A DNA stretch of 43,253 nt from Victivallaceae bacterium. GTDB taxonomy: Bacteria > Verrucomicrobiota > Lentisphaeria > Victivallales > Victivallaceae. Below, in pieces: positions 1,877 to 38,820 of the stretch; the first letter of the stretch is position 1, and each line of letters starts with the position of its first letter. A program made the translations under genes and the position numbers. The notes under the pieces were generated by a model. That model ran no database searches. It saw only the letters and a list, made by a program, of their open reading frames with translations, and was not told the DNA's origin. The stretch lies in NCBI GenBank assembly GCA_024405735.1, contig JAKSOF010000018.1, positions 1-43,253 on the forward strand. The letters run 5' to 3'.

Positions 1877-1912
1877 ATGTAAGAGGAAATGTGTATCATG
1901 TAAAAAAAAGTT

Positions 1913-1950
1913 CCATCACACTTGAAAAGAGGGTGATGGCAAGGTATTGT
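1913..1950 (+). promoter_or_regulatory. Promoter of the structured segment, with an inverted repeat over the -35 box
   Basis: TTGAAA (1922-1927), a 17-base spacer and TATTGT (1945-1950) match the promoter form seen elsewhere in the window. The inverted repeat CCATCAC (1913-1919)/GTGATGG (1933-1939), with a 13-base spacer, flanks the -35 box and could be an operator. The expected start point, about 1957, falls at the foot of the first hairpin of the downstream structure. Confidence 0.55.
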
Positions 1951-1953
1951 ATA

Positions 1954-2160
1954 AGCGGCTCGCCGGAGAAAAGGTGAGCCGTTGATCGTTTTGATCAAGG
2001 TAGTTCGCAACAAAGAAACTTGCAATTTTCTCGTCCAGCGGACTCCGGGATCGGACGTGCTGTGTACGTTTTGCGTACAAGTCGGCACGCCCCTTTCTTC
2101 TTCGCTGGACAGGTTTGCAAGTACCTTTTGTTGCGGGGAAGTTCGGGGGCGTGCCTTTTT
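1954..2160 (+). ncRNA. Putative structured non-coding RNA beside the reverse transcriptase
   Basis: About 200 bases of dense inverted repeats begin where the upstream promoter should start transcription. Hairpin I is an 11-bp stem (1954-1983, loop GGAGAAAA). Hairpin II is TTGATC/GATCAA (1982-1998). Stem III is long: GCAACAAA (2007-2014) with TTTGTTGC (2127-2134), ACTTGCAA (2018-2025) with TTGCAAGT (2115-2122), GTCCAGCG (2033-2040) with CGCTGGAC (2103-2110). It is capped by CGTGC/GCACG (2056-2060, 2085-2089) and TGTACG/CGTACA (2063-2068, 2074-2079). GGCACGCCCC (2084-2093) can instead pair with GGGGCGTGCC (2146-2155), which runs into five T, a possible terminator or switch. The reading frame across 1982-2257 is probably not coding. 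The span could also be the 5' leader of the Sel1 gene. I cannot assign a known RNA family. Confidence 0.5.
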
Positions 2161-2198
2161 GTTAATCAACAAAAAACAGAAAGATGGTGACAGAAAAA

Positions 2199-2279: not shown

Positions 2280-4601
2280 ATGATTTCGAAAAAGATATGT
2301 TTGGCGTTAATGTGCGGGGGCGCGTTAGTGATTGTCGCCGGAGAATTTGAGGATACGATTGCCGCAGTTGAAAACTTTATCGCACAGAAATATCCCACTA
2401 AGCGCGCTCAAAGTTCGGCGAATGGCAAACTCGATAAAATTATTGAGAATCAGCAGTTGAGCGAGGCGGAAAAGATTACCGCGCTGAAAAAAGAATTCCC
2501 GGGAGCGTTTTCGGTTGCCCCCGCCCCGATAAAGGATAACTCGCTGATCTATGTGCCGGTCGTGTCGTATAAGATCCATTCGCTTTCCATCGGATATGAC
2601 CTTCAGGAGTCGGCGAGCAGTCAGACGAAAACCGTCGATATCGTCAAGCAAGTGAGTGAAGCATCCGCTGCTCACGAGAGATCAAAGGGGAAAAGCCTCG
2701 TATCGCAACACCAGGTAGGAGTTGGAGTTGATGCAAAACTCGAGACTACGTTGAACCCCTTGCGCTGGTTGAAGGATGCTTTCCTTAGTGATACTGGTAG
2801 TAGCCTAAAGGTTTCGGCAAAATATCAGTATGATCGTAACGCGACTTCAAACGCTTCGGAATTATGGAGTGCGAAACAGCAGGAACTTTTCCAGCGCAAT
2901 CATGAGCAGATCCGAACTCTGCTTAGCAGTACCGAGATCAGCAAACGGCACCTCACGTTTACCGTGACGCTTTACAACGGTTCCGCTAAAACATTTGAAT
3001 GTGATCTGACGAAAGCGGCGTTGCCGGTCTATATGGGAAATCAATCCTGCAACAAAATGGCGATCCCTTATGATATGTCGGGAGGGCAGATCACTTTGTT
3101 CCCCGGAATGACAAAGGATATAACGTTCCGAATGGAACTCAACACCACTACGGCATTGGAGTTGGTTCGCTTTATGAGTTCCTCCGCACCCACGATCAAG
3201 TTGGAACGGGGAACTTTGCCGATCCAAAGTACGGATGGCGCTATTCCCAATGCTATTGCCGCCGCCTCAACGAATGCGCCGGTCACGTTTCCGTTGGTCT
3301 TGAGCATTCCCGGTCATACCGCAGAGTGGCAGATCCGCCATACCAATGCCGACGGGAAAAAGACCACGTTGCGGGAGGCGTTGAATGAAATTCAGGAAAT
3401 GTTTCTCCGTAAAACCGGTCGGGAACTCTTTGCTTTTGCCGCCGACCGTTCGTTGGAAAAAGTATCCGGTTGCCAGACCACCTTTAATATCGATAGCGAT
3501 TTTGTGATTGGTATCAAAAAAGGTGCTCAGTATATCGATCAGTTGTCCGCGAAAGAATTAGATGATCCTGCCGACCTCGACGGCTATCAGATCAGAATTC
3601 TCGCAGAGCAGCAATTGCAGGAGGAATTGCTGGAGGGACAAGATGTCTCGTTCAAAAAGTTTGTTTTTGAGAAGGTGAAAACAATTGCAGAGAGAGGTAA
3701 TGCGGAGGCGCAGTCGGGACTTGCGGAGTTATATTTAGAGGGTATAGGCGTCGAAAAGGATGCTGAAAAAGCATTTGAGTGGGGGCGCAAATCCGCAGAG
3801 CAAGGCAATGCGGAGGCGCAGGTGGGACTCGCGGCGTTATATTTAGAGGGTATAGGCGTCGAAAAGGATGCTGAAAAAGCATTTGAGTGGGGGCGCAAAT
3901 CCGCAGAGCAGGGCAATGCGGAGGCGCAGTTGTTACTTGCGGGCTTATATTTAGAGGGCATAGGCGTTGAAAAAGATGCCGAAAAAGCATTTGAGTGGTA
4001 TCGCAAGTCCGCAGAACAAGGGAACGCGGAGGCGCAGTGGTCTCTTGCGGGCTTATATTTAGAGGGCATAGGCGTTGAAAAAGATGCCGAAAAAGCATTT
4101 GAGTGGTATCGCAAGTCCGCAGAACAAGGGAACGCGGAGGCGCAGTGGTCTCTTGCGAACTTGTATTTTGATGGCACAGGTGTCGAAAAGGATGTAAGAA
4201 AAGCATTTGAGTGGTGTCGTAAATCCGCAGAACAAGGAGATGCGGTCGCGCAGTTGTCTCTTGCGAACTTGTATTTCGATGGTATAGGTGTCGAAAAGGA
4301 TGTAAGAAAAGCATTTGAGTGGTATCGCAAATCCGCAGAACAAGGAGATGCGGTCGCGCAGTTGTCTCTTGCGAACCTGTATTTTGATGGTACAGGTGTC
4401 GAAAAGGATGCTGAAAAAGCATTTGAATGGTATCGCAAATCCGCAGAACAAGGGAACGCGGAGGCGCAACTTTCACTTGGTGTTTGTTACCTAAACGGAT
4501 TTGGTGTGAGGAAAAACCGCGCGGAGGGGATCAAGTGGCTGCAAAAAGCTGCGGAACAGGGAAATGAGCGTGCGGAAGAAATCTTGTCTCAACTAAATTA
4601 A
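2280..4601 (+). CDS. Secreted protein with eight C-terminal Sel1 repeats
   Basis: About 773 residues. The chosen start has GGAGGAGG six bases upstream; the ATG at 2265 lies before that ribosome site. Residues 1-22 form a signal peptide (basic residues, then a hydrophobic run), so the protein is probably exported. Residues of about 25-470 are unrecognised and contain two predicted beta-rich stretches and few cysteines. From about residue 471, eight 36-residue Sel1-like (TPR-class) repeats follow, with the core GxGVEKDxxKAFEWxRKSAEQGNAEAQ. Sel1 repeats normally mediate protein-protein contacts. The two small membrane proteins that follow are probably co-transcribed. The binding partner and the role in the element are unknown. 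Confidence 0.9.
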   Translation: MISKKICLALMCGGALVIVAGEFEDTIAAVENFIAQKYPTKRAQSSANGKLDKIIENQQLSEAEKITALKKEFPGAFSVAPAPIKDNSLIYVPVVSYKIHSLSIGYDLQESASSQTKTVDIVKQVSEASAAHERSKGKSLVSQHQVGVGVDAKLETTLNPLRWLKDAFLSDTGSSLKVSAKYQYDRNATSNASELWSAKQQELFQRNHEQIRTLLSSTEISKRHLTFTVTLYNGSAKTFECDLTKAALPVYMGNQSCNKMAIPYDMSGGQITLFPGMTKDITFRMELNTTTALELVRFMSSSAPTIKLERGTLPIQSTDGAIPNAIAAASTNAPVTFPLVLSIPGHTAEWQIRHTNADGKKTTLREALNEIQEMFLRKTGRELFAFAADRSLEKVSGCQTTFNIDSDFVIGIKKGAQYIDQLSAKELDDPADLDGYQIRILAEQQLQEELLEGQDVSFKKFVFEKVKTIAERGNAEAQSGLAELYLEGIGVEKDAEKAFEWGRKSAEQGNAEAQVGLAALYLEGIGVEKDAEKAFEWGRKSAEQGNAEAQLLLAGLYLEGIGVEKDAEKAFEWYRKSAEQGNAEAQWSLAGLYLEGIGVEKDAEKAFEWYRKSAEQGNAEAQWSLANLYFDGTGVEKDVRKAFEWCRKSAEQGDAVAQLSLANLYFDGIGVEKDVRKAFEWYRKSAEQGDAVAQLSLANLYFDGTGVEKDAEKAFEWYRKSAEQGNAEAQLSLGVCYLNGFGVRKNRAEGIKWLQKAAEQGNERAEEILSQLN
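3690..4553 (+). repeat. Tandem 108-bp repeats encoding the Sel1 units
   Basis: Eight in-frame units of 108 bp code for the Sel1 repeats. Neighbouring units are nearly identical at the DNA level, including synonymous positions, for example those starting near 3906 and 4014 or near 4230 and 4338. That points to recent duplication or gene conversion. The last unit is the most diverged, as is usual for an array cap. Confidence 0.95.
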
Positions 4602-5138: not shown

Positions 5139-5524
5139 TGAAATTCTTGGGATGGATTCTTTTGCTTCTAGTTGTAGTGAGTATAGGCGGATATTTTTTT
5201 AAAGATGATTTGTTCCCTATGTTGCCTGACCCTCCGGTCAGTATAACTTTTCGCAAGTCTCGTTGGTGGGACGGCTATGTGGCACAGATCAAGAATAACC
5301 ATTCAACCACGATTCAAGTTACGTTGTATGCAACCAACAGGCATAGTAGTAAAACGTATGAGTTCTATGTCCCTGCTGGAAAAACCAAGGAAATCGGTAT
5401 GAGGGAAGCCGGTTTGAATTTTGTTCCGGGATATCATGGATATATAAAAGTTCAAGGTTATACAAAAAAGCTTCGTTATAAGTTGAAAAGCGGGGGCACG
5501 TGGAAGAGGTGGTTTTCGCTATAA
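5138..5524 (+). CDS. Unknown membrane-anchored small protein
   Basis: 128 residues. An N-terminal hydrophobic segment (about residues 4-22) acts as an anchor or signal. The remainder is small, basic and rich in beta-forming residues, with several aromatics (RWWDGY, YEFYVP, WKRWF), and should face the outside or periplasm. The start is chosen because it overlaps the previous stop by one base; an ATG four codons earlier is less likely. No family recognised. Confidence 0.7.
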   Translation: MKFLGWILLLLVVVSIGGYFFKDDLFPMLPDPPVSITFRKSRWWDGYVAQIKNNHSTTIQVTLYATNRHSSKTYEFYVPAGKTKEIGMREAGLNFVPGYHGYIKVQGYTKKLRYKLKSGGTWKRWFSL

Positions 5525-5551
5525 CGCTTATTCTCAGTTTTCCTATTCAAC

Positions 5552-5576
5552 AAAAGCAGACTTTACCCGGTCTGCT
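5552..5576 (-). terminator. Terminator of the leftward element operon
   Basis: AGCAGAC/GTCTGCT stem (5555-5561, 5570-5576) followed, on the minus strand, by TTTTG. It lies 13 bases past the stop of the last gene of the leftward operon and between converging transcripts. Confidence 0.75.
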
Positions 5577-7109: not shown

Positions 7110-7520
7110 CTACGCCTCCTTCCAACTCTCGATCATCTCGGAGCATTGCTTTTTCGTCAGCTGCTGAATGTCGGTGACGTTGAACTTGGCGGCAATCTGT
7201 TGCGGAGTGACACCTTTCTGCCCGGCGAGAAAAAGCAGATATTTCAACTGCTTGGGGCTGGCGGGCTCTGCGCTCTGCGCGTTCCCGTGCGACCGCTCTG
7301 CGACAGGCTTTTCGCGACTCTCGCTTGTCGGTTGCCCTTTCGACAACTCCGATTCCACCGACTTACGCACAAGGTCGAAAGTATCGTGGATTTTCTCGTT
7401 GAGTTGAGACGAGGTCAGACCGTCAGGCAATTCCACTTCGACACTTGCGTGGTAGCTCTGGCTGCTGTACTCGCCCTCGGCAGGCACTTTCTTGGAATAG
7501 GACGCATTGAGTTTCAACAT
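7110..7520 (-). CDS. Unknown small protein with C-terminal helical domain
   Basis: 136 residues. The N-terminal half (about 1-60) looks beta-rich and the middle is a polar linker. The last 50 residues (ASPKQLKYLLFLAGQKG to the end) form a compact predicted helical domain of a kind often seen at the C-terminus of phage recombination-associated proteins. No named family is recognised. AAGGAG sits six to seven bases before the start, directly after a terminator-like hairpin at 7540-7571. Confidence 0.7.
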   Translation of the reverse strand: MLKLNASYSKKVPAEGEYSSQSYHASVEVELPDGLTSSQLNEKIHDTFDLVRKSVESELSKGQPTSESREKPVAERSHGNAQSAEPASPKQLKYLLFLAGQKGVTPQQIAAKFNVTDIQQLTKKQCSEMIESWKEA

Positions 7521-38554: not shown

Positions 38555-38630
38555 GTCCCTATCGTCTAGTGGCCTAGGACATCGGGTTCTCATCCCGGCA
38601 ACATGGGTTCGACTCCCATTGGGGATGCCA
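38555..38630 (+). tRNA. tRNA-Glu (CTC)
   Basis: 76 bases with encoded CCA. The acceptor GTCCCTA pairs with TGGGGAT (two G-T wobbles). The anticodon loop TTCTCAT sits between TCGGG and CCCGG and gives CTC. T arm ATGGGTTCGACTCCCAT. Followed by seven T. Confidence 0.96.
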
Positions 38631-38744: not shown

Positions 38745-38820
38745 GGCAGGATAGCTCAGTCGGTAGAGCAGGGGACTGAAAATCCCCGTGTCCCCAGTTC
38801 GATTCTGGGTCCGGCCACCA
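38745..38820 (+). tRNA. tRNA-Phe (GAA)
   Basis: 76 bases with CCA. The anticodon loop CTGAAAA between GGGGA and TCCCC gives GAA. The acceptor GGCAGGA/TCCGGCC has one A-G mismatch at the fourth pair. D and T arms are normal. Confidence 0.95.

Follow-up and report, generated by a model that had tools for sequence, protein, structure and literature searches.

A leader RNA with two competing conserved folds ahead of exchangeable operons in Lentisphaeria, a candidate new class of transcription-attenuation leader

The window, which is the whole stretch of DNA that was analysed (43,253 nucleotides of contig JAKSOF010000018.1 of a Victivallaceae bacterium), was found to contain a putative structured RNA (1955-2160) between a gene for a reverse transcriptase (RT) and a gene for a Sel1-repeat protein, and the question raised by the locus is which of the two neighbours the RNA serves. 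A sequence-only reading had offered both answers, the RNA being either the template or cofactor of the RT or a switchable leader serving the Sel1 gene, and had named as checks the folding of 1950-2180, a search of Rfam, compensatory changes in homologues and the presence of the structure beside close relatives of the RT. The parts that it had described were all found, namely the terminator with which the RT gene ends upstream, a promoter of the common form, an 11-bp hairpin at the expected 5′ end, a second hairpin, a long stem of three helices with a two-helix cap, and a segment able to pair either inside the cap or with a stretch just before a T-run. The features are given below in window coordinates.

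392-1816, + strand: gene of a group II-like RT, a neighbour outside the RNA system
about 1838-1876, upstream of the RNA: the RT gene's own terminator, visible in the sequence
1922-1950, + strand: sigma70-like promoter, with -35 TTGAAA at 1922-1927, a 17-nt spacer and -10 TATTGT at 1945-1950
about 1957, + strand: expected transcription start of the leader RNA, placed from the promoter
1954-1964 with 1973-1983, + strand: 5′ hairpin P1, 11 bp with loop GGAGAAAA, from folding
about 1984-1996, + strand: small hairpin P2 (GATC...GATC), from folding, with weak covariation
2006-2015 with 2126-2135, + strand: helix P3a, from the strand-swap test
2018-2025 (ACTTGCAA) with 2115-2122 (TTGCAAGT), + strand: helix P3b, from covariation and strand versions
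2033-2040 with 2103-2110, + strand: helix P3c, from the strand-swap test
about 2053-2060 (A) with 2084-2093 (B), + strand: cap hairpin P4 (A:B), an antiterminator-type pairing, from covariation and the swap test
2064-2068 with 2074-2078, + strand: inner cap helix, sitting with the A:B pairing at about 2053-2060/2084-2091
2084-2093 (B) with 2146-2155 (A′), + strand: terminator stem T (B:A′), for which a start at 2083/2145 is possible, from covariation and the swap test
2096-2104 with 2133-2141, + strand: T2, the inner extension of the terminator hairpin, which excludes P3c/P3a, from folding and covariation
2156-2160, + strand: T-run of the intrinsic terminator (T5), directly 3′ of A′
2280-4601, + strand: gene of the Sel1-repeat protein with a signal-like stretch at its N-terminus, lying 120 nt past the terminator and presumed to be what the leader controls

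The fold of 1950-2180 was found to lie far beyond that of shuffled sequence, with a minimum free energy of -100 kcal/mol against -68.6 ± 4.6 kcal/mol in 200 dinucleotide shuffles (z = -6.85), none of which was as stable as the native sequence. Two conserved folds were found to exclude each other in this RNA, P4 sharing strand B with T and P3c/P3a overlapping T2. The earlier view of the fold was upheld for the P3 stem, but it had seen mainly P3, and for the window the slightly stabler of the two is the nested terminator fold (-94.1 kcal/mol against -92.1 kcal/mol for P3/P4). The P3/P4 fold was the stabler one in most homologues, by a median of 7.5 kcal/mol, and the energies of the two folds were several kcal/mol apart in many members. 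Since the nested terminator fold is less stable in most members, termination would need either kinetic control or a pseudoknot with P3, and P3 and B:A′ may form together as such a pseudoknot. The helix P3b, bordered by internal loops AA/RCC and YYTTT/GGG, was the most conserved element of the leader RNA and was lacking in some weaker family matches. P1 occurred in some members of the family and not in others, and had three pairs altered on both strands among the first three members compared.

Members of the family were collected by DNA search and then with two covariance models. In the genome of the window (G000), a second copy was found by DNA search at C2:44986-45185 (79% identical), and the third member of the first model was found in G008, another species of the genus. 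The model R1, built from these three members (the window, C2 and G008 copies), was found to match 17 of 137 genomes of the order, followed by the model R2, representing the RNA core in 18 sequences, which matched 49 of 198 genomes of the class and revealed a copy at C22:76164-76299, the third in the genome of the window. Outside the class, R2 gave weaker matches in other classes of the phylum, ten genomes reaching E <= 1e-5, and the 77 members examined comprise 61 class loci and 16 further matches, 14 of them outside the class. At gathering level, the whole window matched only two tRNAs in Rfam, and the region 1850-2260 matched no family of Rfam 15 at E up to 10, in line with the earlier statement that the RNA resembles no retron, DGR or tRNA layout, no such likeness being found. 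The 6S RNA was considered and rejected, as RF00013 was matched neither in the genome nor by the leader RNA. No description matching the leader RNA was found in the open-access papers searched. A viral collection scanned with a conserved 17-mer yielded six contigs, none matching the covariance model, and these are probably chance matches of a palindromic motif. The predicted leader RNA was thereby confirmed, by comparison of genomes, as a real member of a large family that is absent from Rfam.

In a sequence-only MAFFT alignment of 18 members, a scan of all column pairs without any prior structure was found to return B:A′, P3b, A:B and T2 as the leading distinct stems. The terminator fold was paired in 88% of the cells of this alignment, with double-sided changes at 16 of its 22 pairs and a covariation score of 0.558 against 0.320 in shuffles and at most 0.21 when slid, followed by P3b with the cap, which was 91% paired and scored 0.346 against 0.208 in shuffles. 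The scores of the terminator stem, T2, P3b and P4 were attained in none of 500 shuffles of the MAFFT alignment. Pairs altered on both strands amounted to 8 of 11 in T (11 of 11 in a larger alignment), 7 of 8 in T2 and 7 of 9 in P4. The larger alignment gave double changes at 20 of the 22 pairs of the terminator fold, to which it had been fitted, and at 10 of the 11 pairs of P4, whose pairing had no part in building it (covariation 0.369 against 0.249). In P3b, the pairs 22-160 and 23-159 of alignment A6 were found to covary through UA, CG, AU and GC, and 13 complementary strand combinations were present among 58 members. When strands were swapped between the 58 members, the mean longest paired run was reduced from 8.17 to 4.30 in P3a and from 9.57 to 6.74 in P3c, and the corresponding test gave 7.89 (own) against 6.58 (swapped) for A:B and 10.32 against 6.74 for B:A′; none of these four observed values was attained in 100-300 swaps, shared descent of the members being a caveat on all covariation and swap counts.

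The compensatory changes that the sequence-only reading had looked to homologues for were thus present for both alternative pairings of B, which places the leader RNA beyond chance, and the retention of two partners, A and A′, by the same strand is the pattern that marks an antiterminator competing with a terminator. A T-run was found immediately past A′ in all 77 members examined. The predicted RNA is shown by these alignments to be real, both of its folds to be selected and its putative terminator to be universal.

Promoter-like TTGAAA/TTGACA-N16/17-TAnnnT sites, taking the best-scoring ones, were found about 40-115 nt 5′ of the core in nearly all members. The nearest downstream gene of at least 120 aa was co-directional at 47 of 54 loci (47+/7-), and the nearest upstream gene of that size was evenly distributed (29+/29-). 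A co-directional ORF was found to start within 330 nt downstream at 47 of the 61 loci, and in roughly half of these the start lies 25-61 nt past the terminator; several of the other 14 loci were contig ends or weak matches. The strand bias downstream together with the short spacing suggests that the RNA leads the operon behind it. Two other readings of the region were tried and rejected, namely a leader-peptide attenuator, for which candidate short ORFs were found in only 30 of 58 members at scattered positions and with none conserved, and a protein-coding region, which ORFs do run across but whose frames, judged by eye, are not maintained between members. The earlier suggestion of a switchable leader ahead of the Sel1 gene was supported and extended, the same leader preceding many unrelated operons, and the arrangement of the loci shows the predicted RNA to go with the downstream gene rather than with the RT.

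The 47 downstream proteins were found by BLAST to fall into about 36 unrelated groups. Within the class, the named domains of the cargo included Sel1 repeats, zinc ribbons, double-GTPases, PrsW, SPFH, Lon_C and GmrSD. Behind the third copy in the genome of the window lay a pair of LeoABC-type dynamins, and at one locus an RT of the retron III-A type was found about 3 kb downstream of the RNA. Outside the class, the cargo included an Eco57I methylase with a ResIII/T5orf172 protein, an EcoRI methylase with GmrSD-HNH, GtrA with a glycosyltransferase, and an MBOAT acyltransferase. Going by the named domains, many of these genes are defence-like or surface-modifying. The promoter and RNA of related loci were 83-100% identical in most compared pairs, and the similarity was found to stop within about 60 nt 3′ of the RNA, followed by unrelated cargo; G098 and G126, of different genera, shared 99% identity over 6 kb up to this break and were unrelated after it. 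Near-identical leaders with unrelated cargo beyond them indicate that the cargo is swapped behind the leader.

Several further observations were made around individual loci. Related leader-controlled proteins were found at L049:5170-6522, L096:2479-3957 and L098:3829-4971, at least one of them with repeated DWEKLDGEDWSxLLSxQPQFA units; no Pfam match was obtained for the two tested, PD-(D/E)XK_4 or retron-type RT genes were nearby in two of the loci, and the proteins possibly represent an undescribed accessory system. Upstream of the RNA, serine/threonine kinase-like and ECF sigma factor-like proteins were recognised by eye at about ten loci (the upstream genes of L037, L042, L092 and L115, and L089, L099 and L047), and they were common to several species although the downstream cargo differed. 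Around the C2 copy, long inverted repeats were seen by eye at L003:5760-6000 and 7350-7510 (matching stretches GCAAATATCTGCGGCAGGTA / TACCTGCCGCAGATATTTGC), flanking the copy and its gene for a 174-aa membrane protein as if a unit had been inserted. A copy of the 3′ half of the RNA (B, TTGCAAGTACC and A′), with its B:A′ stem altered on both strands (GGCATACTCCCC/GGGGAGTATGCC), was found at L006:1279-1350 upstream of a full copy. Two equal-scoring copies on the same strand, 1.1 kb apart, were found at L145:4302-4437 and 5434-5569 (G008:C104), the upstream 57-aa ORF being duplicated as well, which is a tandem duplication of the unit. Short remnants (GAAACTTGCAAGTACC; GATAAAACTTGCAAACC) were present about 130-150 nt past the RNA at L042 and L020; they look like a fusion of the two P3b strands or like the 5′ strand by itself, which suggests decayed duplicates.

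The rival proposal of the sequence-only reading, that the RNA is the template or cofactor of the group II-like RT, draws on their adjacency on the same strand in the window. The RT was found to lie in an integrative element, to fall under the maturase cut-off and to give no maturase domain match. The genome of the window contained one RT of this kind against three copies of the RNA, leaving two extra copies with no such partner. The RNA was found without such an RT in G008 and, in a sister element with no RT match, in G007; conversely, a sister integrative element of G015 (with integrase-like, recognised by eye, PD-(D/E)XK and DUF932 genes) carried an RT of 48% identity and no RNA alongside it, so that the structure was absent where a close relative of the RT was present. 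A degenerate pattern for relatives of the RT gave one uninformative 26% match in a spirochaete and none in viral contigs. Partnership with the RT was rejected as a general rule because adjacency to the RT gene is not consistent; it is scarcely credible as an explanation of the RNA, and that the two lie side by side in the window is best taken for a coincidence of cargo. Elsewhere in the window, tRNA-Glu and tRNA-Phe genes were found at 38555-38630 and 38745-38820, which are possible attachment-site candidates for the integrase-bearing element.

A stand-alone, trans-acting small RNA, with the downstream genes incidental or weakly read through, would account for nearly all loci having their own promoter and a strong terminator, for the loci without a near downstream ORF and for the several copies per genome; it would account neither for a strand bias confined to the downstream side (47 to 7 against 29 to 29) and the short spacing to the start codon, nor for the retention of A:B, as such an RNA has no need for A and A′ to compete over B, and it is considered unlikely. 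The breaks 0-60 nt past the RNA, between near-identical promoter and RNA and unrelated cargo, and the partial duplicates nearby could be taken for a recombination platform comparable to an integron attI that has a promoter, with cargo exchanged at the element itself, folded as DNA or as RNA, or at the sequence immediately 3′ of it, attenuation being secondary. This is less probable still, since recombination does not need base-pair selection on a terminator, a T-run or an antiterminator, the gene listings gave no recombinase consistently beside the copies, and the breaks have no single crossover site in common. A type III toxin-antitoxin locus, in which a tandem RNA repeat array precedes an endoribonuclease (PMC8860590), is matched in the order of promoter, structured RNA, terminator and gene, as in ToxI, and in the mobile-element setting; the RNA antitoxin of such a locus is a very improbable identity for the present RNA, which is a single unit without tandem repeats and is followed by proteins of about 36 unrelated groups, among them methylases, GTPases and glycosyltransferases, with no common toxin fold.

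The RNA is most probably a 5′ transcription-attenuation leader of an accessory operon and would represent a new class, judging from pairing and gene order. In such a leader, RNA polymerase would start just 5′ of the first hairpin and produce a leader of about 205 nt, the nascent RNA folding into the long P3 stem and the cap hairpin A:B. The emerging A′ could take B to form the terminator hairpin T+T2 right before the U-run, by which transcription would be halted short of the operon; read-through would follow where P3/A:B wins and a stop where B:A′ wins, and this outcome would set the expression. We infer that the choice between the two folds is regulated, with the P3b helix and its two internal loops as the presumed sensor and a candidate aptamer, and the trigger is likely a small molecule or a protein that binds the RNA. 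The cargo may also have some purpose in common. Counting against attenuation, the about 36 unrelated downstream groups fit no single metabolite. More tentatively, and with less confidence than is placed in attenuation, one class of RNA switch could serve across the phylum as a plug-in controller of exchangeable phage-defence and cell-surface operons (GmrSD, EcoRI-type and Eco57I/ResIII restriction-modification, LeoABC dynamins, double-GTPases, gtr glycosylation, MBOAT acyltransferase and zinc-ribbon/Sel1 proteins), the cargo being swapped behind a conserved promoter and leader and its expression released only when a shared cue arrives, for example infection or envelope stress. How bacterial immune and surface-variation operons are controlled is little understood relative to their mechanisms, and a widespread leader that is kept while the operon is exchanged would offer a common handle on when such operons switch on, as well as a guide to new accessory or defence genes in whatever sits behind it, besides adding a sizeable class of RNA that Rfam lacks.

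Among known systems, Acido-Lenti-1 RNA (RF01687) is a structured RNA from Acidobacteria and Lentisphaerae that is listed as not cis-regulatory (PMC2864571), and it differs from the present RNA, the region 1850-2260 being unmatched at E up to 10. Antitermination by the NusG paralogues RfaH and LoaP resembles the present case in that a single regulator acts on horizontally acquired, surface or secreted operons. A NusG-family search, which very divergent paralogues could escape, gave one match in the genome of the window and only one in 8 of 12 RNA-bearing genomes, the single NusG of the former pointing to no recognisable RfaH/LoaP paralogue for antitermination. The EAR motif has an Rfam model. 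Like the present RNA, it is a structured leader that lies ahead of an accessory operon and alters termination, whereas the window RNA matches no Rfam model, its terminator is built into the leader and its cargo is highly varied. The EAR (epsC) motif acts as the antitermination leader of eps operons (PMC2864571). A likeness in layout is also seen to riboswitch and attenuator leaders with exclusive terminator and antiterminator hairpins, of which orphan riboswitch candidates have been reviewed (PMC7266159): a 5′ leader with its own promoter and covarying competing helices is followed by an intrinsic terminator directly before the target operon, and the present leader differs from them in having no Rfam match and in the great diversity and exchangeability of its target genes.
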